From positions 1 to 45,697 of the forward strand of contig JAPKDQ010000012.1 of the NCBI GenBank assembly GCA_028822445.1: a stretch of 45,697 nt of DNA. The letters run 5' to 3'. Positions 11,105 through 45,443 of the stretch are shown piece after piece (the stretch's first letter is position 1; the number at the start of each line of letters is the position of its first letter). The notes beneath the pieces were generated by a model. The model ran no database searches. It was not told the origin of the DNA and saw nothing but the letters and a program-made list of their open reading frames with translations. The position numbers and the translations under genes were made by a program. Source of the stretch: Rhodospirillaceae bacterium (GTDB taxonomy: Bacteria; Pseudomonadota; Alphaproteobacteria; Rhodospirillales; Rhodospirillaceae).

Positions 11105-11126
11105 TTATTTTGGTCTATGTGTTTGT

Positions 11127-13312: not shown

Positions 13313-13327
13313 GAACAAATAGAGAAC
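13313..13327 (+). promoter_or_regulatory. LexA (SOS) box, GAAC-N7-GAAC
   Basis: A perfect direct repeat GAAC-AAATAGA-GAAC matches the alphaproteobacterial LexA operator. It lies 49 bases before the chosen imuA start. It overlaps a plausible promoter: TTGACC at 13293-13298 upstream and CATAAT at 13327-13332 at its end. LexA binding should block the operon until DNA damage. Confidence 0.85.
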
Positions 13328-13375
13328 ATAATACAAGAATTATTGTTAAAAGATGGAGAGCCAAGAGAGGCGCTG

Positions 13376-15773: not shown

Positions 15774-15781
15774 GCACCGGC

Positions 15782-30746: not shown

Positions 30747-30795
30747 GTTGTTTGTCTGACGTCGGCTTCTGAGTCGGTTTGAAAGAGGAAATTAT

Positions 30796-31704
30796 ATGGC
30801 CTTGAACGCATATTATGATACGCGCATAGCACCGGTTACCTTTGATTTCGTCTACTTCTTGATTAATGCAGAGTGTCATCGACAGGCCGCACGACTGCCA
30901 GAAATTGACTTAAACATAATTTGCGCCGGCTTTAGAAACCAAAGTCTGAGAGATCAGAAATACGCAGAATCCGAGAAGGCTTGGCGCGTCCACCATATTA
31001 TTGGTCAGATACCTCGGCTGCTGCCTACTGTCCGGGCGACGAAGTTTCAATATGACGAGATAAGCCATGTAAGCTTTCCAGCTTATCCTAAAACCTACCC
31101 GTTCTTAACCCAAGACAGTGCAGTGCGATCATACATGCCAACCGTCTTCCGTAGGATGCAAGAGGAAGGATGCCAAGTTCAACCCTTTGAGGCAACAACG
31201 CATGCAAAAAACCTGGTCAGAAATTATACAAGGGGACATCCCTATATAACGATATCTCTTCGCACGACAGAGTTTCAGCCAGAGAGAAACTCTAACCTTG
31301 ATGCATGGTATAATTTCAGCTTGGAAATGGGTGCTTCAGGAGTGAGGGTCCTCGTTATCCCGGATTTTGAAGATTCGTTTAACAATAGAGCTGCATGGAA
31401 ATATGATTGGGACCTGGTTGACTTTGCCGCCCATGACCTCGATTTGCGGTTAGCCTTGTACGAAGATGCTGTGGACAACTTTACCGTCAATAATGGTGTT
31501 GCGGCTTTACTGGTTTTCTCCAAGTGCCCGTTTAAAATGTTTAAGATGAGTGTTCCTGGAATAGAAACGACGAGTGCTGAGTACCTAAAGTCTAACTGGA
31601 ACGTAGACCCAGGAGAAACACCGAGTTTTTTACAAGGAGACCAAAGGTGGGTTTGGCAGGATGACGCGGTCGAAAACTTGATGGAGTTTGCAAGGGCTAC
31701 ATGA
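30796..31704 (+). CDS. Hypothetical protein of glycan locus
   Basis: I cannot assign a function to this 302-residue protein. It has no signal or membrane helix. It carries PYITISLRTTEFQPERNSN (about 154-172) followed by a VRVLVIPDFEDSF strand, which I recall from proteins of unknown function inside O-antigen/capsule clusters. The Rossmann-like alternation suggests a GT-B-like half or a sugar-binding fold. It has AGAGGA seven bases before the ATG and follows the previous gene by 49 bases. Position between methyltransferase-type genes and an SDR makes a role in glycan assembly likely. Confidence 0.68.
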   Translation: MALNAYYDTRIAPVTFDFVYFLINAECHRQAARLPEIDLNIICAGFRNQSLRDQKYAESEKAWRVHHIIGQIPRLLPTVRATKFQYDEISHVSFPAYPKTYPFLTQDSAVRSYMPTVFRRMQEEGCQVQPFEATTHAKNLVRNYTRGHPYITISLRTTEFQPERNSNLDAWYNFSLEMGASGVRVLVIPDFEDSFNNRAAWKYDWDLVDFAAHDLDLRLALYEDAVDNFTVNNGVAALLVFSKCPFKMFKMSVPGIETTSAEYLKSNWNVDPGETPSFLQGDQRWVWQDDAVENLMEFARAT

Positions 31705-31790
31705 CCGTAGTTGAAAAAATAATTTAGAGTTTCGGCCATAACACCGGTCTCTGCCCTAGCCGGTTATTTGCCACATGGAGTCATAGGAAG

Positions 31791-32588
31791 TTGCAATACG
31801 TCGTTATTGGTTCTGCGGGTTTTATTGGCACATATCTAAAGCATGCGTTGCAGGCGGATGGTGTGGACCGCACTGTTGTTGACCTTTCTGATAGTACAGC
31901 CTCGAAGAAACTTGGGGGTATCGTAGATGGCAAATCTTGTGTGTACTGTGCGAACGGCGGGTCGGGACAGAACGGCTTGGGTGCATCTGAAAACTTAAGG
32001 TTACTTGAACCTTTTTTGGCCGTAGCCGATAGATGTGCTCACGTTACGTATTTGTCGTCGGACATGGTCTACCCATACGATGTCACGGTAACTGAAGACC
32101 TGGTTCCTGATCCTGACACAGGATATGGAGAGATGCACGCGGCCCGGGAAGAGGCGCTTCTTGGTGCTGTTGGCAGCAGGTTAATGATAGCTAGGCTTGC
32201 GCAAGTTTATGGTCCTGGTGACACCCATAATGCTTACGGTCCATGCCGCATGCTTCGCGAGGCCTTGCTCGGTGGCCCTATAGTTGTTAAGGGGCGCGGC
32301 GAAGAGCGTAGAGACCATATTCAAATACAGGATGCTGTAACGTTACTGACGTCTCTAATAAGAAGTGAGGCGATGGGTATTTTTAATATCGCAACGGGAC
32401 AGGCGGTTTCTTTTGAAGATGTAGCAAAATACGTTCAGAGTATCGTGCCTTGCGACATAAACTATGAGCCGAGGAGGGTCCCGGTCAAACATCGGGATTT
32501 TGACGTTTCAAAATTAAGGGAAAGGTTCCCTGATTTTCGTCCGCAGACGATGAACCTGGATGACATGATTGAGTTGAATAATGGCTGA
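31791..32588 (+). CDS. NAD-dependent epimerase/reductase (extended SDR)
   Basis: This 265-residue SDR begins with the dinucleotide motif IGSAGFIGTYLKHAL. It shares the fold with RmlD/GalE-type nucleotide-sugar enzymes (VTYLSSDMVYPYD, then ARLAQVYGPGD). The usual YxxxK is replaced by YGEMH, so the Lys is missing; this may be a reductase variant or an inactive binding protein. The start is TTG at 31791, with GGAG ten bases upstream; no in-frame ATG is near. It overlaps the following methyltransferase gene by eight bases, showing an operon. It probably modifies a nucleotide-linked sugar. Confidence 0.8.
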   Translation: MQYVVIGSAGFIGTYLKHALQADGVDRTVVDLSDSTASKKLGGIVDGKSCVYCANGGSGQNGLGASENLRLLEPFLAVADRCAHVTYLSSDMVYPYDVTVTEDLVPDPDTGYGEMHAAREEALLGAVGSRLMIARLAQVYGPGDTHNAYGPCRMLREALLGGPIVVKGRGEERRDHIQIQDAVTLLTSLIRSEAMGIFNIATGQAVSFEDVAKYVQSIVPCDINYEPRRVPVKHRDFDVSKLRERFPDFRPQTMNLDDMIELNNG

Positions 32589-33246
32589 AAAACAGTACGA
32601 AGAATTTAAGGCCCGCTTTGAGGCGGAACAAACTGATCGATTAGGTTTGATGGTCAGTCACGCCTTTGAGGAAGACCCGAAGCGTGTTGGGTTTACTTTC
32701 GCACGCTACGGTTTCGTGGCTCAGATGTTCTCAGGGTTCTCATCAGTCCTGGAAGTTGGCTGCGGCGACGGACAAATTAGTCGTGTCGTCCGACAGGCTG
32801 TCGGTTCGTTGACGGCTGTAGACTTTGATGACCAATTCGTAGCTGATGCGCAAGAAAAGATGAATCCAAAGTGGCCGATAACTTATAGTCAGCATGACAT
32901 ATTAACAGACCCGGTGAACGGAATATTCGATGGGGCCTACAGTTTAGATGTTCTGGAACATATAGACAAATTGAACGAAGGTCTGTTTGTTAGAAACATT
33001 GCTAAGTCTCTGACTGACGATGGCAGCCTCATCATTGGCATGCCGTCTTTAGAGTCTCAAGTGTATGCCAGTCCGGTGAGTAAGGCGGGTCACATTAATT
33101 GCAAAACGCAGGATGATCTAACGAGCTTTCTCAAAGGCTACTTTCACAACGTTTTTCCTTTTGGCATGAATGATAGCACACTCCATACTGGCTACGGCGG
33201 GATGTGCCACTACCTTCTAGCGTTGTGTGTTCGCCCGAAAAGATAA
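32581..33246 (+). CDS. Class I SAM-dependent methyltransferase
   Basis: This 221-residue methyltransferase has a clear motif I (VLEVGCGDGQISRVV, about residues 57-71), followed by TAVDFDDQFVADA, a GAYSLDVLEHI motif and LIIGMPSLE. The N-terminus is short and there is no transmembrane segment. It may methylate a sugar of the surface glycan or a lipid carrier intermediate; the substrate is unknown. It overlaps the preceding SDR gene and ends the plus-strand part of the glycan locus. The convergent minus-strand operon ends 115 bases later. Confidence 0.9.
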   Translation: MAEKQYEEFKARFEAEQTDRLGLMVSHAFEEDPKRVGFTFARYGFVAQMFSGFSSVLEVGCGDGQISRVVRQAVGSLTAVDFDDQFVADAQEKMNPKWPITYSQHDILTDPVNGIFDGAYSLDVLEHIDKLNEGLFVRNIAKSLTDDGSLIIGMPSLESQVYASPVSKAGHINCKTQDDLTSFLKGYFHNVFPFGMNDSTLHTGYGGMCHYLLALCVRPKR

Positions 33247-33361: not shown

Positions 33362-34012
33362 CTATTCAAAATAGATAAATGAATGGTCGCCTGTGTAGCC
33401 GGTCTTCTTAAACCACCAGCCCCATTCTTCGGGTGTATTGAACTGTTCACATGTTACCTGCCAATAAAGCAGGTTCGCCTTCTCTTCTTCAGTTCGATAG
33501 GATTCTACGCATAGATACTTTTCTTTGCCAACGCGTTCCATCTCACTTAGAGCAGGGTCAAGTTCATGGGTATATAAGTTATGAAGTGCGTTTATCGATA
33601 TCACGAGATCGAATTCATCGTCGTCATAAGGGAGTGAGGTTGCACTACCGTGATCTATTAGGTGCTTGACTTCGGGTTTGGCATTTTCAATGGCATAGGT
33701 TGAGACATCTATGCCCTTCACGTCAATGCCAGGGAGAACCTGTGTGAAGTCGAACATTAGAAAGCCTTTACCGCAACCCACGTCTAGGATTCGGTCGCCA
33801 GCCTTTAGCCCATAGTGCTCAATCATGACATCGGCGATTTTTGCCCACCGACCTTCCATGTATCGATACCCGCCATAATTGATGCGCCGGTCGCCGTCCC
33901 AGTAATCGTAACCCCACTTTTTCGCGAGTTCCGCCGCGACGGCCTTTGGATACTCCGGATCATTAACCCGAGCTAGGTAGTCGCGTGTCGTGCTCTTATG
34001 GAGGGGAGACAT
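33362..34012 (-). CDS. Class I SAM-dependent methyltransferase (last gene of operon)
   Basis: This methyltransferase (216 residues) has motif I RILDVGCGKGFLMFDF, then KGIDVSTYAIENA and the FDLVISINALHNL block. It is the most distal gene of the eleven-gene minus-strand unit. ATG 34012 is chosen; a TTG at 34030 would overlap the previous gene by 14 bases. The gap to the upstream stop is four bases, so it is co-translated. The N-terminal RDYLARVNDPEYPKAVAAEL resembles a substrate-recognition helix region of sugar O- or C-methyltransferases; this assignment is tentative. Confidence 0.9.
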   Translation of the reverse strand: MSPLHKSTTRDYLARVNDPEYPKAVAAELAKKWGYDYWDGDRRINYGGYRYMEGRWAKIADVMIEHYGLKAGDRILDVGCGKGFLMFDFTQVLPGIDVKGIDVSTYAIENAKPEVKHLIDHGSATSLPYDDDEFDLVISINALHNLYTHELDPALSEMERVGKEKYLCVESYRTEEEKANLLYWQVTCEQFNTPEEWGWWFKKTGYTGDHSFIYFE

Positions 34013-34016
34013 GAGG

Positions 34017-35051
34017 TCAAGGTAAGCCAACGATCGCTCCTTCGGTTAGCAGTTCATTTCCGAGCTTTAGGCGTTCCCGAATTAAGCCTTCAGCAGTTCG
34101 GTTCACGTTAACCTTTAGCATTGTCTCCAGCCTCTGGGGGCGAAGGACCGCTAAGACTATCGTTATCCATTTTACCTGAAGTATCGGACTTAGAAATTTG
34201 GCGCGCTGCTGCAATATATCGATTGGAATTGAGGACGCAATGGCCTTTTGCATTAGCGACATATGCTCAGTCGACACTCTAATTCTAGGCTGTAAAAAGA
34301 AGTCTGCGATTGCTTTCGCCGGATCATCCCAGCCTGCGAACTCAAAGTCATAAAACTTAGTGCCATCTGCGCTTGAGACCGCATTGTGAAAACCGAAGTC
34401 AGAAGGCGATAGGCAACAGTACTTCTCGTCCAGTTGATCGACTACCTCGCTATTGGAAATGGAGGTGGCTAACCTACTAGAAACGTCCAACCAGATTCTT
34501 TTTAGATTTGAAATCAATATATTAGAAGGCTTTCGAAATTCCTGGGGAAGGTGATGAGAAGACAAGTTAGCTATTCTTTGCTCGATGTTCTCGGCATGTT
34601 CGGTTAGTCCAAAAAACCCATCTGCAGCTCGGTTTTTAATGACTTGTCGTGCAGAGTTTTGATCAATGTTCAACAGAGCCAGGAATTCAGAAGCACGTTG
34701 TATGTCGGCCAGTGTGGGTTTGTTTTTAGCGCCGAAATTCCGTCCTTCGATATATTCCATGGCAACGACACGGAGGTCTGCATCGCAATTGAGCAGTTGT
34801 GGAACAAAGTCGCCCGCAACCGTATTCGCATACTCCAGGAATTCTGTTTCCGCGATGAACCGGTCGGAAAGCCCCAGTTTGGGAGGCCCGTAGAGTTTTA
34901 CTATTGCTCGGTTGGAGGAGTTTTCCCAGAGATAAACTTGGTTATTAGCTCCGCCCGATTGTGAAGTAATGATAGCGTCCCCGGACCCAAACTGGTTTTT
35001 ACCCCAGGCTTCTAGTTCGGGCGCTATGGCGGTCAAGTGTTGCTGAGCCAT
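34017..35051 (-). CDS. APH/choline-kinase-like phosphotransferase
   Basis: This 344-residue protein has the aminoglycoside-phosphotransferase/choline-kinase fold. It has an N-lobe with Lys52 in AIVKLYGPP, hinge AMEYIEGRNF, a catalytic loop reading CLSPSDFGFHNA (Asp218, Asn223) instead of the usual HGDxxxxN, and the metal Asp235 in FYDFEFAGWDDPAKAIADFF. It therefore should phosphorylate a small hydroxyl substrate, here probably a sugar or sugar-linked alcohol. It overlaps the HAD phosphatase gene upstream by 19 bases. A kinase next to a phosphatase suggests a phosphorylated intermediate made and removed within the pathway, or two separate steps. Confidence 0.85.
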   Translation of the reverse strand: MAQQHLTAIAPELEAWGKNQFGSGDAIITSQSGGANNQVYLWENSSNRAIVKLYGPPKLGLSDRFIAETEFLEYANTVAGDFVPQLLNCDADLRVVAMEYIEGRNFGAKNKPTLADIQRASEFLALLNIDQNSARQVIKNRAADGFFGLTEHAENIEQRIANLSSHHLPQEFRKPSNILISNLKRIWLDVSSRLATSISNSEVVDQLDEKYCCLSPSDFGFHNAVSSADGTKFYDFEFAGWDDPAKAIADFFLQPRIRVSTEHMSLMQKAIASSIPIDILQQRAKFLSPILQVKWITIVLAVLRPQRLETMLKVNVNRTAEGLIRERLKLGNELLTEGAIVGLP

Positions 35052-35644
35052 GTCAATTCATTCCAATGCTTGATCATCCGAATGTTCGGCGGGAGGTCGC
35101 TTTTGTGAGTGAGTCCGAGAGGAGAGAACCATAGTTTCTCGGTGGAGGGGGGGAAAGAGGCGTGGGTGAGAATATCCACCAGGTCATCTATGAAAAGGTC
35201 ACATTGAAGGAAGTCAATTAACGCGACTTTCTCATCTTTCGTCTCATTTAAATGAATGTCTCTTTCTGGGATGAGGGCATTCCCTTTAAAAACGAGATGT
35301 TTTTTGATCCATTGCCGTGCAGAGATATGCAAGTCGTGTTTTGGGCCGAGATAGGGGTGTTTGCTTCTATGGCTAATAATGACTGTCTTATGCCCAGCCT
35401 GTTGTATCGCGCCAATCATTTCAAGTGCTGCTGGAAATGGCTTCGCATGCACCATGCCAGGCCCGTATAGCTTTCCTTGGAATTCAGTCCATTCAGTCTC
35501 TCGATCCTGCTCGCGCAAGAAATCCCGTATACCTAGTTTTGTTTTCGGGGTTGTCTCTGGCAAGGAAGAGACGTCCTTCGCCAGTCGTTTGATTGCTTCG
35601 TCATAGCAGACGATAGTGTTGTCGAAATCTAAGCCGATAATCAT
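35033..35644 (-). CDS. HAD superfamily hydrolase (phosphatase)
   Basis: This 203-residue haloacid-dehalogenase-fold phosphatase has the nucleophile motif I GLDFDNTIVCYDEA (Asp6, Asp8), a motif II strand TVIISHRS, a Lys in the motif III region and the metal-site FIDDLVDIL. It is longer than GmhB and has an insertion between motifs I and II, so it is not a plain heptose-bisphosphatase. It is of a type found in glycan loci. Its ATG directly follows the transketolase C-subunit stop (TAAATG). In a heptose-like pathway it would remove the terminal phosphate before nucleotide activation; this is inferred from the surrounding genes. Confidence 0.85.
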   Translation of the reverse strand: MIIGLDFDNTIVCYDEAIKRLAKDVSSLPETTPKTKLGIRDFLREQDRETEWTEFQGKLYGPGMVHAKPFPAALEMIGAIQQAGHKTVIISHRSKHPYLGPKHDLHISARQWIKKHLVFKGNALIPERDIHLNETKDEKVALIDFLQCDLFIDDLVDILTHASFPPSTEKLWFSPLGLTHKSDLPPNIRMIKHWNELTWLSNT

Positions 35645-36586
35645 TTAACGGGTTGAGCCCGTAGCTCTTGATAGACATTCTTTCGCTGCAGTGACAATAC
35701 TGCCTGCATCAATGCCAAAATATTCTCTTGCATAGCTTTGTGAGCCGACTGTGTGCATGAACTCGTCTCGTGTTCCAAGGCACACGACCGGCACATGTAT
35801 GTCTTTTTGGGCGAGATGAGCAGAGACGTACTCACCAAAACCACCATTGGTTGAGTGCTCTTCCACAGTTAAGAGCGCACGAAAACGTTTGGTTAAGCTT
35901 GAAATCAGCTCGTGATCAACGGGTTTTACCGTATTTACCAGAACGACCTCTGCCGATACGCCATGGTCACCTCTTAAGGCATCAGCGGCTGCGATAGCCT
36001 CGGGTCCAATTGTGCCAACGGATAAAATACAGATGTCTACACCCTGACGCACGACAGCGGTTTTTCCAATCCCAACGGCTTCTGCTTGTGGAACCAGGTC
36101 CTTCTCGCCTTTTTTGCCGATACGAATATATGTTGGAACACCTGAGCCTACGGCCTCTCTCAAGACGACCCTCAGCGATGGCGCATCGTATGGCGTTAGT
36201 ACGCGAATATTTGGGATTGCGCGGAAAATAGAAAAATCTTCGAGCGAATGGTGGGTCGGACCAAGACTTGCATAGGATAGACCGGAACCAGTGCCGACGA
36301 TGACAACAGGCGCGTTATGGTACGCTACACCTATGCGAATTTGCTCAAGGCAGCGCGTCGTTGTGAACGGCGTAATGGTATATACTATGGGGTGAAGGCC
36401 ACTTAGGGCCATACCAGCTGCAACGCTCATCATATTGGCTTCGGCTATGCCGCAGTTCATGAATTGATCGGGACGACTACCTTTAAGGTTATCGAACAGT
36501 CGGTTACCAATGTCCCCGGATAAAAGAACTAACTTGGAGTCCTCTGCGGCCATGGCAGTAACTTCTGCTGCGAATGCATTTCTCAT
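35645..36586 (-). CDS. Transketolase, C-terminal subunit (pyrimidine-binding)
   Basis: This 313-residue protein is the second half of a split transketolase: LLSGDIGNRLFDNL, the catalytic Glu segment FMNCGIAEANMMSVAAGMA, the substrate loop SLGPTHHSLEDFSIFRAIPN, and the C-terminal transketolase domain (ALLTVEEHSTNGGFGEYVS). It binds the aminopyrimidine part of thiamine diphosphate and works only with the TPP-subunit encoded nine bases upstream. Split transketolases of this size are typical of specialised pathways rather than of the pentose-phosphate cycle, where one 660-residue chain is usual. Its placement inside a nucleotide-sugar operon suggests ketose chain extension for a special sugar. 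Confidence 0.93.
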   Translation of the reverse strand: MRNAFAAEVTAMAAEDSKLVLLSGDIGNRLFDNLKGSRPDQFMNCGIAEANMMSVAAGMALSGLHPIVYTITPFTTTRCLEQIRIGVAYHNAPVVIVGTGSGLSYASLGPTHHSLEDFSIFRAIPNIRVLTPYDAPSLRVVLREAVGSGVPTYIRIGKKGEKDLVPQAEAVGIGKTAVVRQGVDICILSVGTIGPEAIAAADALRGDHGVSAEVVLVNTVKPVDHELISSLTKRFRALLTVEEHSTNGGFGEYVSAHLAQKDIHVPVVCLGTRDEFMHTVGSQSYAREYFGIDAGSIVTAAKECLSRATGSTR

Positions 36587-36595
36587 AATTGAGCC

Positions 36596-37435
36596 CTAAG
36601 CCTCGATGCCAAGTTCTTTGGCAGCCAAGTCAACTTCCTCAGCTGTTGGAATTCGATAATGCCAATTGTTGTCATCTTCCATAAATGAAACACCGCGCCC
36701 TTTAACCGTATTAGCAATAATAGCTTTTGGTCGGGGATCATCTCTGTTTTTGGCTACCGCGTCAGCCATGTCTTGAAAATTATGACCATCGATCTCCGTG
36801 ACGCACCACCCAAAGGCACGCCATTTATCGGCTAAAGGGCTAAGGCCAAGCACTTCGTCGCTGCGGCCGGTCGCCTGCCATTTATTATAGTCGATAGCGA
36901 TGGTTAGGTTTGAAACCTTTTGAGCGGACGCTAGGAGCGCCGCTTCCCAATTGGAACCCTCATTGCACTCCCCATCGCTAAGGACGGCATAAACGGAGTA
37001 GGGTGTGCCCGAGATCCGTGATGCTAAGGCCATACCAAGGCCCATTGGTAGGCCATGTCCAAGGGATCCGGTGGCAGCCTCAATGCCGGGTAAGGCGTTC
37101 GGCGTTGGGGGGTGTTCACCAAAGAGAGATCCATTTTCTCCGTAGCCCTCGAGCGCAGATCTTTCAAAGAAACCCCGTTCAGCTAATACTTGAAACAAAG
37201 CAGGTGCCGCATGGCCCTTGCTTAGGATGAATCTATCGCGCGCCGGATCGGTTGGGTTCTTGGGATCAATGCTGACCAATTGCCAATAGAAGAAGACCAA
37301 GAGGTCCACGCACGAGAGGCAAGACCCCAGATGCGGCGTCCCCGATTCATGCGATGTCTTGATGATTCGGTGGCGGAGCGTCTGAGCAGTCGATGTCAGA
37401 GAGTCTAGGCCGTGTTGGATCGGTGCTTCTGGCAT
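36596..37435 (-). CDS. Transketolase, N-terminal (TPP-binding) subunit
   Basis: This 279-residue protein is the first half of a split transketolase. Features are the N-terminal SHESGTPHLGSCLSCVDLL with the active-site His, LSKGHAAPAL, GSLGHGLPMGLGMALA, and the diphosphate-binding motif VLSDGECNEGSNWEAA ending in DYNKW (first Gly of the usual GDG replaced by Ser). It carries the phosphate and metal site of thiamine diphosphate. Two-carbon ketol transfer by this pair could make sedoheptulose-type or longer ketose phosphates. It lies 17 bases after the SDR stop and pairs with the C-subunit gene after nine bases. Confidence 0.93.
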   Translation of the reverse strand: MPEAPIQHGLDSLTSTAQTLRHRIIKTSHESGTPHLGSCLSCVDLLVFFYWQLVSIDPKNPTDPARDRFILSKGHAAPALFQVLAERGFFERSALEGYGENGSLFGEHPPTPNALPGIEAATGSLGHGLPMGLGMALASRISGTPYSVYAVLSDGECNEGSNWEAALLASAQKVSNLTIAIDYNKWQATGRSDEVLGLSPLADKWRAFGWCVTEIDGHNFQDMADAVAKNRDDPRPKAIIANTVKGRGVSFMEDDNNWHYRIPTAEEVDLAAKELGIEA

Positions 37436-37452
37436 ACCGTATTATTTTTCCA

Positions 37453-38442
37453 CTAAGGGCGATGCACGTAATTTACTGGGTGCTTACTGAGTGTCTCTAA
37501 GTTGTCTTTAACCCAACCTATGCAATGCTCCAAGCCTGTTTCAAGGCTTATCTGATCTGTCCATCCGAGTTCAGATCTAATCTTGTCACTATTCAGCCAA
37601 TAGGCATTATCTTTGCCGACCCGGTCTGGAGCGACGTTGACGTTTTCCTCAAAAGCGGCGCCTAGAATCGCGCATATCATTTCAACGAGCTCACGAATGG
37701 ACACAATGCGCGGTGTTGAGATGTGATAGGTTGCTCCGACTGGTGCGTTTTGCGCAATAGACCATGTGGCGGGTGAGACATCATCCATATGGATGAACGA
37801 GCGGGTTGATACTCCACCACCATGCAGTTCCAGCTTTTCTCCGGTAAGAATCGACAGAATGGTTCTGGGTATTATTCGATAGAGTCGCTGGCCAGGACCA
37901 TAGACATTTGCCGCCCTGGTGCTGACGACGGGGAGATCAAATGCATCTCGATATATGTTGAGCGTCATGTCGCCTGCAGCGCGAGATACCGCATATGGCG
38001 TTGAGGGGGAAAAAGTTTGGTCTTCTGTGATCCAACCATCAGTGGAACCGTAAACTTCGGGCGTTGTCACGTGGACGTACTTGTCTAGAAAATCTAGGTG
38101 TCTCAGCTTCTCAGCAAGCTTTGCCGCTGAAACGACGTTTGTCACCATCCAGTCCTCTGGGTGATCCCAGCTTTGTCCGACCATGCTTTGGGCGGCGAAA
38201 TTCACGATGGTGGAGAAGCGTTCTTTGTTGATGAGCGTCATCAGAGCATCGAGGTCGTGATTGAGGTCTATTTTCTCAAAGCGAAAGCTGCCTTTTGCAG
38301 GTTTCCCTTTGTAAGGCAAATAGACGTCGTCAAGTTCGGCAGACCGGCTTGCCCCAATGGTATCGATACCTTGTTTCACGAGATATGAACTGAAGCTTGA
38401 CCCAGAAAAAGAGTTGCTGCCTAGGACAAGAACTTTACTCAT
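37453..38442 (-). CDS. NAD-dependent epimerase/dehydratase (GDP-mannose-dehydratase-like SDR)
   Basis: This 329-residue extended SDR has LVLGSNSFSGSSFSSYL at the N-terminus (a variant of GxxGxxG), HVTTPEVYGS and TPYAVSRAAGDM. The catalytic Tyr150 is present, but the usual Lys four residues later is Arg154 (YAVSR). The overall pattern (YGPGQRLYRIIP, SFIHMDDV) is that of nucleotide-sugar 4,6-dehydratases/epimerases. Start ATG 38442 is chosen because the fold begins there; a longer reading adds a basic tail overlapping the dehydrogenase gene. It likely acts on the nucleotide-activated sugar made by the same operon. Confidence 0.88.
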   Translation of the reverse strand: MSKVLVLGSNSFSGSSFSSYLVKQGIDTIGASRSAELDDVYLPYKGKPAKGSFRFEKIDLNHDLDALMTLINKERFSTIVNFAAQSMVGQSWDHPEDWMVTNVVSAAKLAEKLRHLDFLDKYVHVTTPEVYGSTDGWITEDQTFSPSTPYAVSRAAGDMTLNIYRDAFDLPVVSTRAANVYGPGQRLYRIIPRTILSILTGEKLELHGGGVSTRSFIHMDDVSPATWSIAQNAPVGATYHISTPRIVSIRELVEMICAILGAAFEENVNVAPDRVGKDNAYWLNSDKIRSELGWTDQISLETGLEHCIGWVKDNLETLSKHPVNYVHRP

Positions 38443-38476
38443 GCTGTTGGGGTCTCTTTTTGTTTGTATGTTGCGG

Positions 38477-39544
38477 TTACAGTGAGAAATCGACCAGACA
38501 GCGCCCGGCTGACTCACCATTTCGCATCTTCTTGATCAACCCATTAACCCCTGCAAGGGGCTCGATTTCAGTAATAAGGTCCGTCAGATCGACCGAACGG
38601 GAGTCTGCTAAGGCCATATAACGCGGGATGTCCCGGTGAGGAATTGCTTCGCCACCTGTCGTGCCTGTGATCGACTTCCCAAAGTGTAGTGGGAGGGTAT
38701 GAATTGCTGTGTCAGCGCCAGTTCTCGGGACACCAACGAGGATTGTACGTCCGTGATTTGCAGTTAGGCTGTACCCTTGAGAAATGATCCCAGGGTTTCC
38801 GGTGTTGTCGATGAAGACATCCAATGCTTCATGCTGGAATATCTCATTGAGACGAGCCCAGGGGTCACAGGTTGACCCATCAATTGTTTCAGTCGCGCCA
38901 CACGATTTGGCAAGTTCTAGCCTGTTGGCAAAGCGATCTACAGCAATAATGGAACGGGCACCTGCAAGGGCTGCACCCTGAACAATGTTGAGACCAATGC
39001 CTCCAGCGCCAAATACGACGACTGTTTCTCCCAAGCGGATGTTCGCCCGATTGTCTATGACACCGAACCCGGTAGTTACTGCGCATCCATAGAGCGCAGC
39101 CGTTTTTAAGTCGGTTTCGGCTGGAATGGCAGTCAGTCTATTCTCTGACACGATGGCAAAGTTGTTGAACGTGGTGACCCAGCCGGCATTAACGGTTTTG
39201 TCGCCCCATTGGTACTTGGGGGTTGCTGCTTCAATGCCTAATGACGGCCGCCAGTGTAAAACAACAGCATCACCAGGTTTAATGTGCTTCACGCCCGGGC
39301 CGATGCTAATGACATGCCCGGACCCTTCATGCCCTAGGAGATGAGGAAGCCATCTGTCCGGTCCTTTTACGCCGTCAATTTCGCCTAATTGGGAACCACA
39401 GATTCCGCTATATCGAAGCTCAACGAGAACTTGTCCGATCTCCAGGCTCTCCGGGAGTGTGATTTCCCCGATAACGAGGTCTGAATTTTGTTCGACTAAA
39501 ATTGCAGCTATCGCAGTTTTAGGCCCATCATCAATCATATTCAT
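38477..39544 (-). CDS. Zinc-type alcohol dehydrogenase family (MDR) protein
   Basis: This 355-residue medium-chain dehydrogenase has catalytic zinc ligands Cys49 (SGICGSQ) and His72-Glu73 (LLGHEGSGHV) and a Rossmann motif VVVFGAGGIGLNIVQGAA. The lobe that normally holds four cysteines for the structural zinc lacks them, so only the catalytic zinc is expected. ATG 39544 follows the GmhA-like stop by two bases; a longer start at 39595 would overlap it. In this operon it probably oxidises or reduces a hydroxyl of a sugar or sugar phosphate, giving a keto intermediate for the SDRs. The substrate is not known. Confidence 0.9.
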   Translation of the reverse strand: MNMIDDGPKTAIAAILVEQNSDLVIGEITLPESLEIGQVLVELRYSGICGSQLGEIDGVKGPDRWLPHLLGHEGSGHVISIGPGVKHIKPGDAVVLHWRPSLGIEAATPKYQWGDKTVNAGWVTTFNNFAIVSENRLTAIPAETDLKTAALYGCAVTTGFGVIDNRANIRLGETVVVFGAGGIGLNIVQGAALAGARSIIAVDRFANRLELAKSCGATETIDGSTCDPWARLNEIFQHEALDVFIDNTGNPGIISQGYSLTANHGRTILVGVPRTGADTAIHTLPLHFGKSITGTTGGEAIPHRDIPRYMALADSRSVDLTDLITEIEPLAGVNGLIKKMRNGESAGRCLVDFSL

Positions 39545-39546
39545 TC

Positions 39547-40155
39547 TTAGCCAATCTGCTTTGGAGCTATCTGCTCTCGCTTGGAATAGAGCCACTGCAT
39601 CAACAGGTGTCCAACTGTCATCTGCAAATCTTCAGATATTTGCATATCATCAATGGCCACGTGGATCGGGTGATCAGCGAGCGCCCGTGATTTACCTCCG
39701 GAATACCCGAGGATAGCATATGATTCGATGCCGCTAGCCTTGCAATGCTCAAGCGCCTTAATGACGTTTTGGGAGTTGCCACTGCCGGATAATGCAATCG
39801 CAATATCACCTGGTTGCGCCAGTACGGCCAGTTGATAGGAGAATATGCTCTCGTACCCTTCATCGTTGGCGAGGCATGTGGTGACCGACCCATTTGCTGG
39901 GAGTGCCGTTATTCTCAATCCACTACCGAATGTTTTAGAAATGCCATAGATCAAATCGTTGGCTAGGTGCATGGCGTTGCCAGCAGATCCACCATTGCCA
40001 AAGATGAAAACCTGTCGACCGTCTTTCCAGCAAGACAGAAGCGTATCTGCTAGCTTTTTAACTGTCTCTAGTGGCAATTGACCGGTCGCCTCTAACAGCC
40101 GCTCGAAGTAACTAGCCGCGAATGCTTGGAAGTCAGAGTTTTCTTTATCGTTCAT
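39547..40155 (-). CDS. SIS-domain sugar-phosphate isomerase, GmhA-like
   Basis: This 202-residue SIS protein resembles phosphoheptose isomerase (GmhA), which converts sedoheptulose-7-phosphate to heptose-7-phosphate. It has FIFGNGGSAGNAMHLANDL (residues 51-68), the TTCLANDEGYESIFS loop, SGSGNSQNV and a C-terminal helix with His183 aligned to the catalytic His180 of E. coli GmhA. The catalytic Glu65 of that enzyme appears as Asp67 (ANDL for AEEL). The substitution is conservative but unusual and could mean a changed substrate. It overlaps the SDR stop by one base (TAATG). Its natural partner would be the split transketolase in the same operon. Confidence 0.88.
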   Translation of the reverse strand: MNDKENSDFQAFAASYFERLLEATGQLPLETVKKLADTLLSCWKDGRQVFIFGNGGSAGNAMHLANDLIYGISKTFGSGLRITALPANGSVTTCLANDEGYESIFSYQLAVLAQPGDIAIALSGSGNSQNVIKALEHCKASGIESYAILGYSGGKSRALADHPIHVAIDDMQISEDLQMTVGHLLMQWLYSKREQIAPKQIG

Positions 40156-41090
40156 TAGAGTACGTTCTCACTCATCCATTTGAGGCAATAAAAACGGTCT
40201 TCGTTTTTCAATGCGCCAGACCGATAGGCTTCAGCGATCTCTGAAATTGCATTACTAACCGATTTCTTAGGCTTAAATCCGGCGGCTAAAATCTTATCGG
40301 AGTTTATCCGGTAGGAGCGTGGATCGTCCGACGGCTGAATATTTATAGTCGCAGGAATATGCTCAGAGATCTTTTCGGCGATAGTTTTGATTGACAGATT
40401 CTCAAACCCTGCATTGTATATGCCTAAGACGTCTGGGCGGTCGAGAAGGAATATGTACAGGTCTGTAATGTCGTCTACGTGAATATTGGGTCGCGTTTGC
40501 TCGCCGCCAAGAACAGTGATTGCACCCTTGGTTAAAGCTTGCATTGCAAGCATATTGACCGCTACGTCAAGACGCATGCGCGGGGACAAACCGCACACAG
40601 TAGCTGGCCGTACGATCTGCACTTTCATTTGTTCTGAGTAACTCATCAGAACTCGTTCAGCGACCATCTTAGTCTTATTGTATTCTGATAGAGGCACGAG
40701 TTCTAAGTCTTCAGTCACATGTTCTTCGTCTTTAAGGCCGTAGACACTGCCTGAAGACGCGTAAATGAAGCGCTTTACGCCCTGCCTAACAGCTTTATCT
40801 GCCAGGCGCATGGTCGCCAAGCACGAGACTTCCCAGGTTAGTTTAGGGTCGAGATCGCCACAGGGATCATTGGCGACAGAAGAGAGATGAATAATGGCGT
40901 CATACCCATGCAGGTCGAGGTCTTCGGGCTCGCGCACGTCAAATTGTCGTACTTCAAGATTGGGATGGTCCTGCAAGTCGTTACCGAACCACATAATATC
41001 GAGGGCAGTGACATGGTGTCCTGCATTGAGGAGTTTCGGTACTAAAACGTTGCCTTTGTATCCACAGGCTCCGGTAACAATAAGTTTCAT
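40155..41090 (-). CDS. NAD-dependent epimerase/dehydratase (extended SDR)
   Basis: This 311-residue extended SDR has the NAD motif IVTGACGYKGNVLV, IHLSSVANDP, YASSGSVYG and an intact YNKTK (Tyr/Lys pair), so it should be active. The C-terminal part resembles nucleotide-sugar epimerases such as GalE/HldD types. The start at 41090 forms an ATGA overlap with the nucleotidyltransferase stop and has GGAA upstream. Coupling to the nucleotidyltransferase suggests that its substrate is that enzyme's product. Confidence 0.91.
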   Translation of the reverse strand: MKLIVTGACGYKGNVLVPKLLNAGHHVTALDIMWFGNDLQDHPNLEVRQFDVREPEDLDLHGYDAIIHLSSVANDPCGDLDPKLTWEVSCLATMRLADKAVRQGVKRFIYASSGSVYGLKDEEHVTEDLELVPLSEYNKTKMVAERVLMSYSEQMKVQIVRPATVCGLSPRMRLDVAVNMLAMQALTKGAITVLGGEQTRPNIHVDDITDLYIFLLDRPDVLGIYNAGFENLSIKTIAEKISEHIPATINIQPSDDPRSYRINSDKILAAGFKPKKSVSNAISEIAEAYRSGALKNEDRFYCLKWMSENVL

Positions 41091-41809
41091 GGTGTGTTCC
41101 AACTAAAGTCCGCTTCGGCTTTGGCGATGGCTTCTACAGTCCCAATATCTCTGTGAAATGTTCCGTTAAAAAACGTATACCATTTAGCGAGTAGTGATGG
41201 CACTACATCAGCACAGAAATCTGCCGCCTCAGGGTGTGCGCAGAGCCATTCAAGCACATCAGATTCAAGCAGAAAAACAGCACCATTTGCGAGATTTCCG
41301 GGCGGGTGGCTGACTTTTTCGAAGACTGCCCTAACAACCCCAGCCTCATCCACTTTTACGATCCCACAGCTTTCAGGTCGATCTGTCTCGAAAGTCATCA
41401 TGGTGCCATAACAGCCTCTGGGTCGCGCCTCGTGGGCAGTAAAATATGCATCTGGATCAAAGACCGAGAGATTGTCGGCATGGGCGAAAAAAAATGTACC
41501 AGTGTCGCGAAAATACTCTTGATTGGCTCTTAGGGTTCCCGCTGTTCCCAAAAGTTGATCTTCGTGGACCAAGTCAATTTGATCGCGCCACTGGCTAGTC
41601 GCGCAATATTCTCTTACTTGCTCCGGTAGGTAGTGAGTGTTGACTAAAACCCGCTGCACGCCGGCATTGAGAAGCATGTCCAACCAATATTCCAATACTG
41701 GCTTGCCTTTAATCGGAATTAGGCACTTGGGTGTCGTATCGGTAAGTGGGCGTAGGCGCGTTCCTAGGCCACCAGAAAGCAAAAGGGCTCTACGTGGTGG
41801 CGTCGTCAT
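41087..41809 (-). CDS. Sugar-phosphate nucleotidyltransferase (HddC/GCD1-like)
   Basis: This 240-residue nucleotidyltransferase has the signature LLSGGLGTRLRPLTDTTPK and CLIPIKGKPVLEYWL, then FFAHADNLSVFDPD with the metal-binding Asp. It resembles the HddC (GDP-heptose) and mannose-1-phosphate guanylyltransferase class. It should join a sugar-1-phosphate to GTP or another NTP; the nucleotide cannot be read from sequence. It overlaps both neighbours by four bases. An additional cytidylyl-type domain is encoded in the preceding gene, so the operon has two nucleotidyl-transfer activities. Confidence 0.9.
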   Translation of the reverse strand: MTTPPRRALLLSGGLGTRLRPLTDTTPKCLIPIKGKPVLEYWLDMLLNAGVQRVLVNTHYLPEQVREYCATSQWRDQIDLVHEDQLLGTAGTLRANQEYFRDTGTFFFAHADNLSVFDPDAYFTAHEARPRGCYGTMMTFETDRPESCGIVKVDEAGVVRAVFEKVSHPPGNLANGAVFLLESDVLEWLCAHPEAADFCADVVPSLLAKWYTFFNGTFHRDIGTVEAIAKAEADFSWNTP

Positions 41810-43281
41810 AAGGCTAGAGAGTCGGTTAGTTCATTTCTCGTAATGGGTATATTCCCCAACCGTCCCGTCTGGATACCTGCTGCGATAGACCCGATGAAAG
41901 CGGCTTCCCATGTGGAGGCGCCGGCTGCAAGAGCAAGTGATGCGCCGGTAAGCATGGAATCCCCTGCGCCAGAAACGTCTTTTGGAGAGGGATTGAATGC
42001 TGGGAGGCGGTCTGTGCCTAGTTCATTCGGCGTTAAATTGGATGAAACCGCTAAGACGCCAGCGGCGCCCAGTTTGATAAAAACGTTTTTGCTTTCTGTA
42101 GCCAAAAGCAAATTCTGTCCCACCTTTGCCAAACCGCTGTTTTGATCCCTAAGTGACAACCGTGCTTCAAACTCCGTCGGTGTGAGTAGCTGTGTGTCTC
42201 TATACCGAGAGATGTCCCCAACTTGTGATGAGGACTGGCTATCCGCCACGATCATCGTATTGCGCATCTTTGCAAGCGCAGTCATTTTATCGATCAGCGG
42301 CTGAGGTAGTAGTCCGTAATTAAAGTCGGAGAATATTAGCAGGTCAATGTCGGCACATAAGCTTTCGAAGTGAGATAAGATTTCACCCTGATGCTTAAGA
42401 GATATCTCGTGCTGACGTACGTGGCTGACTCGAAGCATCGTCTTATCCTGTGCCCGAAATCTCTGCTTTAGTGTGGTGGGCCTGCTGCTATCAGTAATGA
42501 GAAATGCGTTAACCTTGTACTCCGGAAGCCATTTAGAAACGCGTGCGCCCATTGCATCATCGCCGATAGCAGATAAGAAGTGAACGTTCGCGCCAAGGCC
42601 TGCCGCATGTGCCGCAACGATTCCAGCGCCGCCAATGAATCGCTCTTCTGATTGCGGCGAGATAACAATAGATGGCTCTTCTTGCGACATACCGAGTGGC
42701 TCGCAGTTGATATATTCGTCGATGATTAGGTCGCCAACAACTACGACGGTGAGGTCAGAGAAAGACAGTATGCGTTGAGTTAATTGAGCCTTAGTTATTC
42801 CGTGACGATTAAGAAAGTCATAAGGAATATTGAGTTGAGTAGGCTTGGATGCTGCGTTGTCCTGGATCAGAAGCTCCGTGGCAGAGTAAGTCGACTCGCC
42901 AGATGCGAAGATGAGGCGGCCACCATACTCATTGACGATAGGTTCTTCGATGTTTGAGAGTGTCTCAAACTCCTTACCCTTGATTACAACTTTAGGCTTG
43001 AGTTCGCGTAAGCAGGATTCTAGGCCGTCATGAAGAATTATGACCCTATCGACGATGCCTAGCTCTCGTAAAGCTTCCGCGCGCTCTTCTGGAGGGGGGA
43101 TGTCTTTTGACGGTTGAATCGCTGTTACGCCAACAACGAGTAAATCGCCGCTTTCAGCCGCAAACTTCAGTACCCTCACATGTCCGGGGTGAAGAGTAAA
43201 AAAGTTACCGGATACAAAAACGACTGTCTCGGTTTTCGTCATTCTCAATCTACTGTCGTGTAAAAAGGACACTGTAGACAT
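41806..43281 (-). CDS. Nucleotidyltransferase-PfkB kinase fusion (HldE domains in reverse order)
   Basis: The 491-residue protein starts with a cytidylyltransferase-like domain (VFVSGNFFTLHPGHVRVL, with HPGH at residues 31-34, about residues 18-140). A ribokinase/PfkB sugar kinase domain follows (VVVVGDLIIDEYI near 180 and the catalytic Asp in DVSGAGDSMLTG, 435-446). E. coli HldE carries the same two activities in the opposite order. By analogy it should phosphorylate C1 of a heptose-like phosphate and nucleotidylate the result. It is the first gene of the operon. Start 43281 has GAGG very close; an ATG at 43242 is an alternative. The 162 bases upstream presumably carry the operon promoter. 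Confidence 0.87.
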   Translation of the reverse strand: MSTVSFLHDSRLRMTKTETVVFVSGNFFTLHPGHVRVLKFAAESGDLLVVGVTAIQPSKDIPPPEERAEALRELGIVDRVIILHDGLESCLRELKPKVVIKGKEFETLSNIEEPIVNEYGGRLIFASGESTYSATELLIQDNAASKPTQLNIPYDFLNRHGITKAQLTQRILSFSDLTVVVVGDLIIDEYINCEPLGMSQEEPSIVISPQSEERFIGGAGIVAAHAAGLGANVHFLSAIGDDAMGARVSKWLPEYKVNAFLITDSSRPTTLKQRFRAQDKTMLRVSHVRQHEISLKHQGEILSHFESLCADIDLLIFSDFNYGLLPQPLIDKMTALAKMRNTMIVADSQSSSQVGDISRYRDTQLLTPTEFEARLSLRDQNSGLAKVGQNLLLATESKNVFIKLGAAGVLAVSSNLTPNELGTDRLPAFNPSPKDVSGAGDSMLTGASLALAAGASTWEAAFIGSIAAGIQTGRLGNIPITRNELTDSLAL

Positions 43282-43443: not shown

Positions 43444-45117
43444 TTAAATGGCTGGCTCGACGACCTGAATAGTCTGCCGTGCTGCAATATCTGTCAGTAT
43501 CTGAGTTATTCCGCTGGGCCAGACAACCTCGATTCGGTCGACTGATTCTTGCTGTCCAAGCCCAAACATGAGGATTGGATCATTTGTCGAGTTGTAGCCG
43601 TGCGCGCTAGTGTGCTCGCGTGCTTGGGATACTTCGCCAGAGGTAATTTTCACTTTTGCTCCGTATCCGTTGCTATTGCTGACTGATCCACGCAACGCCA
43701 CTTTTATCCATGCGTTGTCATTCCCACCGTTAATGAGCAGGTGGTTCTGTTGTGGAATATTTACTCGTTCACCGTCGCTGTAATACGTGCGATTGGTCAC
43801 AAACAGATCTGGAAAGCCGTCTTCATTGATATCTGCGGCGCCGACGCCGCTGCCAATGCCAAACCCTTCAGCGCCTGATCCCACTGTTATATCCGTGAAC
43901 GTATGGTCGCCGTTATTGCGATAGAGTTTGTTAGCTGCCGGTTCCCAAGCAATATAGAATTGTACAAAAGATGGCATTGAAATAATCACATCATTGATGA
44001 GGACGTTCGATAGACCACCGTTGTTGACGTAGATATCCAGCAGGCCATCGTTGTCAAAGTCGGCCATTGCACACCCACGCGCACCACCTGCATCACCTGT
44101 GCCTGAAGACAGAGTGATATCGTTAAATTTTACATCCCCGGTATCAGAGAGCTCGCTCAAAATAAGTCGGTTTGCTTGGTCTGCGTTTGGTAAATAGAAA
44201 TCGAAGTCGCCGTCGTTATCGATGTCGCCGACACAGGCGCCATTCGCATTGCCTGGATTAAGGAAGGCGAAGCCATTGGGTCCGCGCCGGCTTGTTGTAA
44301 TGTCGGTAAATGATCCGTTCTTATTATTTAGAAGTAGGATATTTGTGGCACCTTCGTTGGTGATTAGAAGGTCGACCCAACCGTCGTTGTTTACGTCGGT
44401 CCAGTTCGGTGCCCCTTGTGAGTTTGCTTCAAGAACTTTCCCCTGAATACCGACGCCGGATTCAAGGGTGACGTCAGAAAAAGTTCCATCACCATTATTT
44501 TTAAATAAAGCATTCTCCACGTGGGCATCAGCACATTTCCAGAATAGGTCTAGATCGCCATCATTGTCGTAATCGCCCCAAGCAAGACCTGCCCCGGTGT
44601 TTCCTATGCCTCCTATCCGCGCATCTTCTTCGTTGCCCGCGCGCATAAAACCTGCCGGTCGGGTAACATCTATAAAATTTGCGGTGCCAGTTTCGACGAA
44701 CATGTTCTTGTATACGGATGTGGGGACATAGTTTCCTCTGGGGTCTAGTCCTCCCGGTATGTTTGAAACCGCTAAATCTTGATCGCCGTCATTGTCGTAA
44801 TCGCCCCACGACGCGCCGCGGCTTATACTGCGTTTGTTTTCCACACCTCTGAGGTTAGCTACATTTTTAAATATCCCCGTTCCATCATTTTCCCAAAGAC
44901 GGTTGTTTATACCTTCTGCTAAGGCTTCTGCTGGAACATAGATATCTAAGTCGCCATCGTTGTCGTAGTCGGCAAAGGTTGGCCCTGTGCTATTTACTCC
45001 CATATCAGTCAACCCAGCCTCATCGCTCATGTTTTTGAACGTTATCAGGGATGGTTCACCAATCGCTGCTGTCGCGATGAGAAGGCTTGGCAGGAGAGTA
45101 AGTGACCAGTGTGGCAT
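43444..45117 (-). CDS. Secreted FG-GAP/VCBS repeat protein with ASPIC/UnbV domain
   Basis: This 557-residue protein has a signal peptide (SLTLLPSLLIATAAIGEP), then six or more FG-GAP/VCBS-type repeats marked by calcium-binding loops DYDNDGDLD, DYDNDGDQD, DVNNDGWVD, DIDNDGDFD, DFDNDGLLD and DINEDGFPD. These should form a beta-propeller. The last 80 residues (WIKVALRGSVSNSNGYGAKV, then FGLGQQESVDRIEVVWPSG) are a canonical ASPIC/UnbV domain. Such proteins are exported and often act in adhesion or as enzyme accessory domains; the function is otherwise unknown. The start at 45117 has GAGG four bases upstream, whereas a longer reading lacks a signal-like N-terminus. Confidence 0.92.
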   Translation of the reverse strand: MPHWSLTLLPSLLIATAAIGEPSLITFKNMSDEAGLTDMGVNSTGPTFADYDNDGDLDIYVPAEALAEGINNRLWENDGTGIFKNVANLRGVENKRSISRGASWGDYDNDGDQDLAVSNIPGGLDPRGNYVPTSVYKNMFVETGTANFIDVTRPAGFMRAGNEEDARIGGIGNTGAGLAWGDYDNDGDLDLFWKCADAHVENALFKNNGDGTFSDVTLESGVGIQGKVLEANSQGAPNWTDVNNDGWVDLLITNEGATNILLLNNKNGSFTDITTSRRGPNGFAFLNPGNANGACVGDIDNDGDFDFYLPNADQANRLILSELSDTGDVKFNDITLSSGTGDAGGARGCAMADFDNDGLLDIYVNNGGLSNVLINDVIISMPSFVQFYIAWEPAANKLYRNNGDHTFTDITVGSGAEGFGIGSGVGAADINEDGFPDLFVTNRTYYSDGERVNIPQQNHLLINGGNDNAWIKVALRGSVSNSNGYGAKVKITSGEVSQAREHTSAHGYNSTNDPILMFGLGQQESVDRIEVVWPSGITQILTDIAARQTIQVVEPAI

Positions 45118-45443
45118 GGGACCTCTTTCTATAGAATGTATTAGGAATTCATTTTGGGTGAAGGTGCAAATTTTCCAATGCTCGGATCTCAAACTAACCG
45201 CCATGAGAACAGGGTCACAGCAAGCCCATAAGATCGCGGTGACTTTACATTCGCTGAAACCTAATAAGAATCCGTGCTTGCAATTCGGCTCTTTCCCTCA
45301 ATGTTCTATCAGGACGCCGATAACCTTATTCTAATCTTACAGGATGCTCTCAGTTAGCCAAAGCTATCGCTATTCAGGCGTGCGTTCGAGAACCCCAGTA
45401 TTTCTTAGTTTTTAGACAAAACATGGTCGCTAAAGGTAAAGAA
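45118..45443. other. Intergenic region without recognisable genes
   Basis: No open frame with a ribosome-binding site and no clear repeat are visible in these 326 bases. The promoter of the minus-strand FG-GAP gene must lie in its left part. The right end runs into the terminator of the lysine-rich gene. Confidence 0.6.

Follow-up and report, generated by a model that had tools for sequence, protein, structure and literature searches.

A Rhodospirillaceae operon homologous to the Bradyrhizobium bradyrhizose cluster and its probable role in making a branched ten-carbon sugar

We analyzed a stretch of 45,697 nucleotides from a Rhodospirillaceae bacterium (contig JAPKDQ010000012.1, hereafter the window), which makes up the entire contig C18 of a draft genome (2.85 Mb, 98.9% complete). 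Eleven minus-strand open reading frames (ORFs) between positions 33362 and 43281 form one tight unit, in which neighbours overlap or are separated by at most 17 bases. Judged by protein comparison, it is well supported that this operon is a diverged homologue of the gene cluster assigned to bradyrhizose in photosynthetic Bradyrhizobium. We consider it probable (about 0.58) that its product is the nucleotide-activated precursor for a sugar of ten carbons with a branch at C4 and probably a carbocycle, namely bradyrhizose or a close relative; here we infer both the product and the order of the reactions.

An earlier note on this DNA had described the eleven genes as a unit dedicated to an unusual higher-carbon activated sugar. 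The unit was borne out by the ORFs, by Pfam and NCBIfam matches and by the same gene order in four genomes of the same genus, and the proposal was right in kind, as the operon is homologous to a published bradyrhizose cluster. The C7 or C8 product that the note had favoured gives way to a likely C10 product. Pfam matches were obtained for 10 of the 11 operon proteins, the exception being the HAD protein. The genes are listed below with the evidence for each assignment.

41806..43281, minus strand: gene 1, HldE-C-like nucleotidyltransferase (HxGH motif) followed by a PfkB/heptose-kinase-like domain in one chain, NT-PfkB (Pfam, NCBIfam)
41087..41809, minus strand: gene 2, sugar-1-phosphate nucleotidyltransferase, ManC/HddC-like, NTP_transferase (NTPtr) (Pfam, NCBIfam)
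40155..41102, minus strand: gene 3, SDR1, a short-chain dehydrogenase/reductase (SDR) of the NAD-dependent epimerase/dehydratase type (Pfam, NCBIfam)
39547..40155, minus strand: gene 4, GmhA-like phosphoheptose isomerase, SIS domain (Pfam, NCBIfam)
38477..39595, minus strand: gene 5, zinc-dependent alcohol dehydrogenase (ADH) (Pfam, NCBIfam)
37453..38520, minus strand: gene 6, SDR2, RmlB-like, homologue of ORS285 gdh (Pfam, NCBIfam)
36596..37435, minus strand: gene 7, split transketolase N half (TKN), thiamine-diphosphate domain (Pfam)
35645..36586, minus strand: gene 8, split transketolase pyrimidine-binding and C-terminal domains (TKC) (Pfam)
35033..35644, minus strand: gene 9, HAD-type phosphatase with the DxDNT, S, K and DD motifs kept (motifs, predicted fold)
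34017..35051, minus strand: gene 10, APH-fold small-molecule kinase (Pfam, predicted fold)
33362..34030, minus strand: gene 11, small class I S-adenosylmethionine-dependent methyltransferase (MT) (Pfam)

Gene 4 is the sole SIS_2 match in the host genome at E 0.001. The start of gene 6 is perhaps the inner ATG at 38442, since four same-genus loci align only from residue 14–27. We propose that the gene 1 fusion serves as 1-kinase and nucleotidyltransferase for a heptose, that gene 5 oxidises the chain-end hydroxyl and that gene 11 is the source of C10.

Homology with the bradyrhizose cluster

In the photosynthetic Bradyrhizobium ORS285, a gdh mutant lacks the O-antigen and the bradyrhizose peaks vanish (PMC4743980). 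The accessible sections of that paper place gdh in an eleven-gene sugar cluster that is syntenic in six photosynthetic strains, assign this cluster to the bradyrhizose O-antigen precursor (strains including ORS285, ORS278 and BTAi1), and call the bradyrhizose synthesis genes unknown, with no pathway given. In genome G507, the gene parts of the ORS285 primers gdhF, gdhR, rfaLF and rfaLR all matched exactly. The gdh primer pair spans 381 bases and the rfaL pair 338 bases, compared to published gdh fragments of 300–400 bp, while the gdhF and rfaLF sites lie 45.8 kb apart, compared to a published gdh–rfaL distance of about 44 kb (PMC4743980). With four exact primers at this spacing, G507 carries the reference ORS285 cluster.

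The gdh operon of G507 runs NT-PfkB, NTPtr, SDR1, GmhA, SDR2 (gdh), TKN, TKC, ADH, HAD, APH, MT. All eleven genes of the window match these one to one and in the same order except for ADH, which stands between TKC and HAD in the Bradyrhizobium cluster and between GmhA and SDR2 in the window. Protein identity between the two is 70% for SDR1, 60% for TKN, 59% each for GmhA and MT, 58% for SDR2, 51% for TKC, 48% for NTPtr, 47% for NT-PfkB, 42% for ADH, 40% for HAD and 29% for APH. Both gdh primers lie exactly in the G507 homologue of gene 6, and their gene-specific parts match gene 6 of the module in Bradyrhizobium sp. SRS-191 with one mismatch each. The window thus has the same eleven families in one operon with the gdh homologue. 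Within the genus Bradyrhizobium, the gdhF site (at most one mismatch of the pattern used) was present in 8/265 genomes, and all eleven genes were found in 8/8 of these (seven fetched regions and L050); the module was sought in the gdhF-positive genomes, the other 257 being left out.

Recurrence of the module

Our comparison covered the host genome and 60 relatives, 61 genomes in all. Four genomes of the host's genus (L013–L016) carry all eleven genes in the order of the window with 51–90% identity, so the operon is not a chance arrangement. The earlier note had held that the gene set should recur together in other genomes, and it does so both in these loci and in the wider clade described below. 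Two further same-genus loci differ. In L032 (genome G001, 9442–19018), most module genes are present together with an E1-like pair and a split transketolase that has diverged (N half 36–37%) and is apparently not orthologous, a sign of transketolase exchange. L019 (genome G004, 6313–11394) is a contig end with genes 6–11, whose transketolase and gene 6 pieces are 93–96% identical to those of the window; its transketolase N half is broken over two frames, which may reflect real decay or an assembly error.

For a wider scan, an alignment of the transketolase N half was run against one genome per species, and the best 80 loci were kept and scored with profiles of the eleven genes using bit-score thresholds. 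A transketolase tree (FastTree, midpoint root) comprised 136 tips from 143 loci with a transketolase pair. The window's transketolase falls in a clade of module loci with a support of 1.00, whereas support is weak for the deeper branches that relate it to rfb-type and FGGY-type pairs, and these were not used as evidence. This window clade contains 27 distinct loci besides the window; L017, which comes from the host's family, and contig L034, titled Alphaproteobacteria bacterium, are identical DNA and were counted once.

Across the 27 loci we detected HAD in 27, APH in 26, SDR1 and MT in 22 each, ADH in 21, SDR2 in 20, NT-PfkB in 19, GmhA in 17 and NTPtr in 13. The sole locus without APH is a truncated contig (L035). 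All eleven genes occur in 11/27 loci, and many of the others are cut contigs. When only the 16 loci flanked by 8 kb or more on each side are considered, HAD and APH are present in all 16, MT in 15, SDR1 and SDR2 in 14 each, NT-PfkB in 13, GmhA and ADH in 12 each and NTPtr in 10. At the score thresholds used, none of nine module genes was found in the 24 FGGY-type loci, and none in the 16 loci labelled rfb-type, except for NTPtr in one.

The loci with all eleven genes include those titled Herbaspirillum sp. Sphag64, Pseudolabrys sp. Root1462, Bradyrhizobium sp. SRS-191 and Prochlorococcus sp. AG-347-M15, although titles of draft genomes can be wrong. On the Prochlorococcus contig (L061) the eleven families are present in a rearranged order. 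Azospirillum and planctomycete loci hold parts of the gene set, and minimal sets of GmhA, fusion, transketolase and methyltransferase occur in L088 and L105, both titled as one Lachnospiraceae isolate. Our search of the literature on related pathways returned no paper naming the module in its title or the opening of its abstract.

The fusion gene and its companion thiamine enzymes

The kinase–nucleotidyltransferase fusion reported in the earlier note is present, but with its domains in the opposite order to HldE, the nucleotidyltransferase preceding PfkB. The scores of gene 1 stay below the HldE equivalog cut-offs (197.8 vs 345 and 65.9 vs 181.5 bits), and in an NCBIfam scan of ten operon proteins (all but the methyltransferase) none reached the cut-off of a heptose-pathway equivalog.

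From 248 genomes of the same order we collected 62 full-length fusions of type 1 (one per genome) and 17 of the more distant type 2. Truncated matches (G051, G086, G149, G228, G258) and the window's own copy were dropped before counting, and mostly up to six candidates per genome were scored. At least 44 of the 62 type-1 fusions lie within 20 kb of a split transketolase, compared to 0.83 expected from genome size and transketolase number, with a median distance of about 3.9 kb; these distances are based on the transketolases among the matches listed, so that weak split transketolases may be missed. In the 18 type-1 regions with no listed split transketolase within 20 kb, we found nine E1alpha/E1beta-like pairs (adjacent or several kb away), one decarboxylase-type thiamine ORF, recognised by motif about 9 kb off, and one transketolase piece at a contig edge. 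No thiamine enzyme was found in the remaining seven, three of which are on contigs shorter than 7 kb. For the type-2 fusions, at least 10/17 are near a split transketolase; two of the other seven regions were examined (five were left out), and both contain E1-like genes, one of them at the edge of the stretch.

In our reading, the fusion and an SDR would produce an activated keto-sugar (in loci with GmhA, a heptose), and the thiamine enzyme would then branch it with an acetyl (E1) or a hydroxyacetyl (transketolase) unit. This bears on the earlier note, which places the transketolase ahead of the isomerase, as the source of a C7 or C8 ketose phosphate. E1 pairs stand beside GmhA in L175, one of the nine E1-type fusion loci, and also in L161 (an Azospirillum plasmid) and L188 (a type-2 locus), where that order cannot hold because an acetyl-type product lacks the C1 hydroxyl that GmhA needs. 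The argument is direct for these three loci, and for transketolase loci it is an analogy, not proof. As an observation in its own right, L161 (11920–19408, Azospirillum oryzae plasmid) encodes the NT-PfkB fusion, a SIS protein, an SDR, the E1-like pair and two DegT aminotransferases, and is perhaps an amino variant of the module.

The split transketolase

The closest solved structure to the C half is the split transketolase of Carboxydothermus hydrogenoformans (PDB 6yaj/6yak, E 1.3e-46). This enzyme has the stretch THAGLTVGEDGASHQ, whereas the window counterpart is TGSGLSYASLGPTHH, in which the His and the Glu-Asp of the motif are gone. The pair therefore differs from canonical TktA both in its split genes and in the replaced GEDG stretch, which in canonical transketolase holds the substrate-contact His and Asp motif. 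A residue test to separate phosphate from nucleoside diphosphate (NDP)-sugar acceptors failed, as the altered motif is found in most catabolic relatives too.

Many relatives of the pair have FGGY kinases and sugar transporters as neighbours. Other related pairs lie among sugar-nucleotide genes: rfbF, rfbG or rfbH was found in 11/16 loci labelled rfb-type, and GmhA in 0/16. On a Methylovirgula plasmid the pair (N half 47% identical) follows rfbF-rfbG-SDR-rfbH in the order TKN-TKC. A Paenibacillus cellulosilyticus plasmid (L166, 6882–9712) shows the arrangement rfbF-rfbG-MT-[SDR-TKN fusion]-TKC, with the fusion annotated as an SDR. The surroundings of the window's transketolase are nucleotide-sugar genes rather than catabolic ones, as expected for C2-branching enzymes.

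The HAD, APH, SDR2 and methyltransferase proteins

The HAD protein gave no Pfam or NCBIfam match and no significant PDB sequence match. Its DxDNT, Ser, Lys and Asp-Asp motifs are kept in 20/20 aligned homologues, and its predicted model (predicted local distance difference test, pLDDT, 94) matches HAD phosphatases such as 5'(3')-deoxyribonucleotidases. The model of the APH protein (pLDDT 91) matches choline, ethanolamine and methylthioribose kinases. A role of the HAD protein as heptose 7-phosphatase was considered and is doubtful, HAD and APH being found in 0/9 E1-type fusion loci.

SDR2, a possible 4,6-dehydratase, has TTPEVYG and YAVSR at positions where the motifs of RmlB differ, but GMD-type enzymes likewise do without the Asp in question. 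Gene 11 was the most conserved of five aligned proteins (mean column identity 66%, others 40–58%, in differing sequence sets) and is also present in the small loci L055, L057, L088 and L105, which together fit a central role. With 222 amino acids, it is unlike the long C-methyltransferases TylC3 and NovU.

A proposed pathway to a C10 sugar

Bradyrhizose, a bicyclic monosaccharide of ten carbons, closes its C1 aldehyde on OH-4 to a furanose, or on OH-5 or OH-9 to pyranoses (PMC9912281). From these published ring closures it follows that C4 carries an OH together with C3, C5 and C9, that is, a tertiary alcohol at a branch point. Combined with the description of the sugar as “inositol-fused” in PMC9042403, the closures place the second ring at C4–C9.

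By analogy, we read the transketolase pair as a probable C2-branching enzyme acting on a nucleotide-linked keto-sugar and not as the maker of a C7/C8 ketose phosphate, because related pairs adjoin rfbF-rfbG-rfbH, because E1 or decarboxylase enzymes stand in its place in other loci, and because C4 of bradyrhizose is a tertiary alcohol. In the pathway that we propose, GmhA would convert sedoheptulose 7-phosphate to heptose 7-phosphate, from which the PfkB and nucleotidyltransferase domains (and gene 2) would form NDP-heptose. An SDR (gdh or SDR1) would generate a C4 ketone, the methyltransferase would add a C-methyl group next to it, and the split transketolase would transfer a two-carbon hydroxyacetyl unit onto C4 to give the tertiary alcohol. 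The zinc dehydrogenase could then produce a C7 aldehyde, an aldol reaction between C8 and C7 would close the ring C4–C9, and an SDR would reduce the last ketone. HAD and APH accompany the transketolase form of the module, and they would probably act after branching. The carbon count of such a scheme, heptose C1–C7 plus ketol C9–C8 plus methyl C10, would be C10.

A more general proposal is tentative, and we hold it with less than even confidence: in a widespread module, the split transketolase would use a keto-heptose bound to a nucleotide as its substrate, and hydroxyacetyl transfer to C4, a chain-end aldehyde formed by a dehydrogenase and an aldol-closed inositol ring could build the skeleton as C7+C2+C1 without a cyclase of the dehydroquinate-synthase kind.

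Weighing the explanations

Several points weigh against a bradyrhizose-like product. In a Pfam scan of 40 window ORFs, glycosyltransferases, flippases, polymerases and ligases were not recognised. An inositol-like ring would retain the 6-hydroxyl, the group that RmlB-type enzymes normally remove. The assignment of C10 as a C-methyl group depends on the “consecutive quaternary carbons” reportedly named in the synthesis paper. The altered active-site stretch of the C half is common to most FGGY relatives and proves no new acceptor. Of the 16 well-covered window-clade loci, six are without NTPtr, four without GmhA, four without ADH and three without NT-PfkB. The nine E1-type fusion loci share little with the window, with HAD, APH, MT and ADH in none, GmhA in one and NTPtr in two, and the argument from exchange of thiamine enzymes is weak for GmhA because so little else is shared. 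Finally, the ORS285 assignment is based on insertion mutants, for which the authors state the risk of polar effects (PMC4743980).

A pathway of the same kind may lead to another product, such as a C9 or C10 sugar branched at C4 that does not form a carbocycle and carries other decoration, in a host without bradyrhizose. We regard this as somewhat unlikely. The weak likeness of APH, HAD and ADH (genes 10, 9 and 5, the most diverged at 29, 40 and 42% identity) indicates that the end sugar may differ, several relatives have no ADH, NTPtr or GmhA nearby, some have extra C-methyltransferase-like or DegT genes, and of the four genes facing the operon (30000–33246) only the last has a homologue beside the Bradyrhizobium cluster, in 1/8 genomes (L207). 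On the other hand, all eleven genes match one to one, with the full set in 8 Bradyrhizobium genomes and 11/27 window-clade loci. Less likely still is the original idea of a transketolase-made C7 or C8 ketose phosphate that passes through GmhA, kinase, phosphatase and nucleotidyltransferase to become an NDP-heptose or octose, much as in the lincosamide route with its transaldolase. The genes for all four later enzymes (GmhA, kinase, HAD and nucleotidyltransferase) are in the operon, GmhA accompanies the transketolase in 12/16 well-covered window-clade loci vs 1/9 E1-type loci, the minimal sets in L088 and L105 combine them, and the transketolase sequence is compatible with phosphate substrates. 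However, same-subfamily pairs in rfb-type loci stand without GmhA (0/16), E1-like or decarboxylase-like enzymes occur in 10/18 type-1 loci beyond 20 kb of a listed split transketolase, an acetyl-type product could not feed GmhA in L175, L161 and L188, and sedoheptulose 7-phosphate is expected from the housekeeping transketolase. The order with transketolase ahead of the isomerase is thus possible but improbable.

An ordinary pentose phosphate or sugar-catabolic transketolase that lies beside polysaccharide genes by chance is very improbable. Relatives with FGGY kinases and sugar transporters are common, but module genes occur in 0/24 FGGY-type loci, compared to HAD in 27/27 and APH in 26/27 window-clade loci, and the host has its own full-length transketolase elsewhere in the genome (open frame of 697 amino acids, 28% identity); a plain catabolic or housekeeping enzyme was rejected on these grounds. 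Also rejected were a canonical HldE/HddC heptose route alone, given the missed equivalog cut-offs and the steady company of other enzyme types, and a lincosamide-type octose, as no transaldolase family is found among the eleven genes.

Neighbouring genes

Four plus-strand genes (30000–33246) face the operon, two without a Pfam match, an SDR and a methyltransferase. The latter two are possible accessories of the module, and homologues of one or both (31791..33246) are present in several module loci:

31791–32588, plus strand: facing SDR, possible accessory of the module
32581–33246, plus strand: facing methyltransferase, possible accessory of the module

Each of the four has homologues beside some module loci, for example L013, L014, L015, L018, L019 and L020. 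Directly upstream of the operon and on its strand is an FG-GAP/ASPIC-UnbV gene (43444–45204), which has a 72–76% identical counterpart at the same place in L013–L016. No Wzy_C/rfaL-type or other assembly family was recognised by Pfam in the 40 ORFs scanned in the window, which is a whole contig with the operon near its end. Farther away, at 13343–19138, an ORF without a Pfam match, an impB/mucB/samB-type ORF and a DNA polymerase III alpha-type gene form a row that we take to resemble the imuA-imuB-dnaE2 mutagenesis cassette.

Comparison with known systems and significance

The window shares isomerase, kinase, nucleotidyltransferase and HAD genes with the ADP/GDP-heptose pathway (GmhA, HldE, GmhB, HddC). 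In contrast to that pathway, its fusion is reversed, no equivalog cut-off is reached, and a transketolase, ADH, APH, MT and two SDRs are added. The lincosamide octose route comprises LmbR, LmbN, LmbP, LmbK and LmbO, of which LmbR is a transaldolase making octulose 8-phosphate. The parallel drawn in the earlier note holds in outline, as both share the isomerase–kinase–phosphatase–guanylyltransferase logic, but LmbR has no counterpart among the eleven genes.

Branching of nucleotide-bound sugars by thiamine enzymes has precedents. YerE branches CDP-3,6-dideoxy-4-keto-glucose, giving a tertiary alcohol with a carbon branch at C4; AviB1/AviB2 form an alpha-KADH2 (E1-like) pair for which C2 branching is proposed; and the split transketolases of miharamycin and amipurimycin are proposed to transfer hydroxyacetyl units to keto-sugars (PMC12247030, PMC4753412). 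The 2025 review mentions 13 putative ketone-acceptor transketolases from a bioinformatic study, all from Streptomycetes and none characterised in vitro (PMC12247030). The window shares with these systems a thiamine enzyme in a nucleotide-sugar cluster and, with miharamycin and amipurimycin, the split transketolase. E1-like pairs as in AviB1/AviB2 replace the transketolase in some loci with the window's fusion gene, and the acceptor in the window would differ in being an NDP-keto-heptose.

The closest known system is the bradyrhizose cluster itself, which has the eleven families in one operon, with gdh as the counterpart of gene 6; the two differ in sequence (29–70% protein identity) and in the place of ADH, and no rfaL-type gene was recognised in the window ORFs scanned. 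Our literature searches found no account of bradyrhizose biosynthesis. The window operon thus offers a second, distant reference for this cluster, and the homology yields a carbon-by-carbon pathway hypothesis for bradyrhizose. If the transketolase pair acts on a ketone, it would be a concrete example of tertiary alcohol formation by a transketolase, a reaction that is a proposal in PMC12247030. From the module one would expect surface sugars with higher carbon numbers, bicyclic or branched, in bacteria other than Bradyrhizobium, and, if the proposed scheme is true, bradyrhizose-type sugars would extend far beyond that genus, even to Prochlorococcus and planctomycetes.

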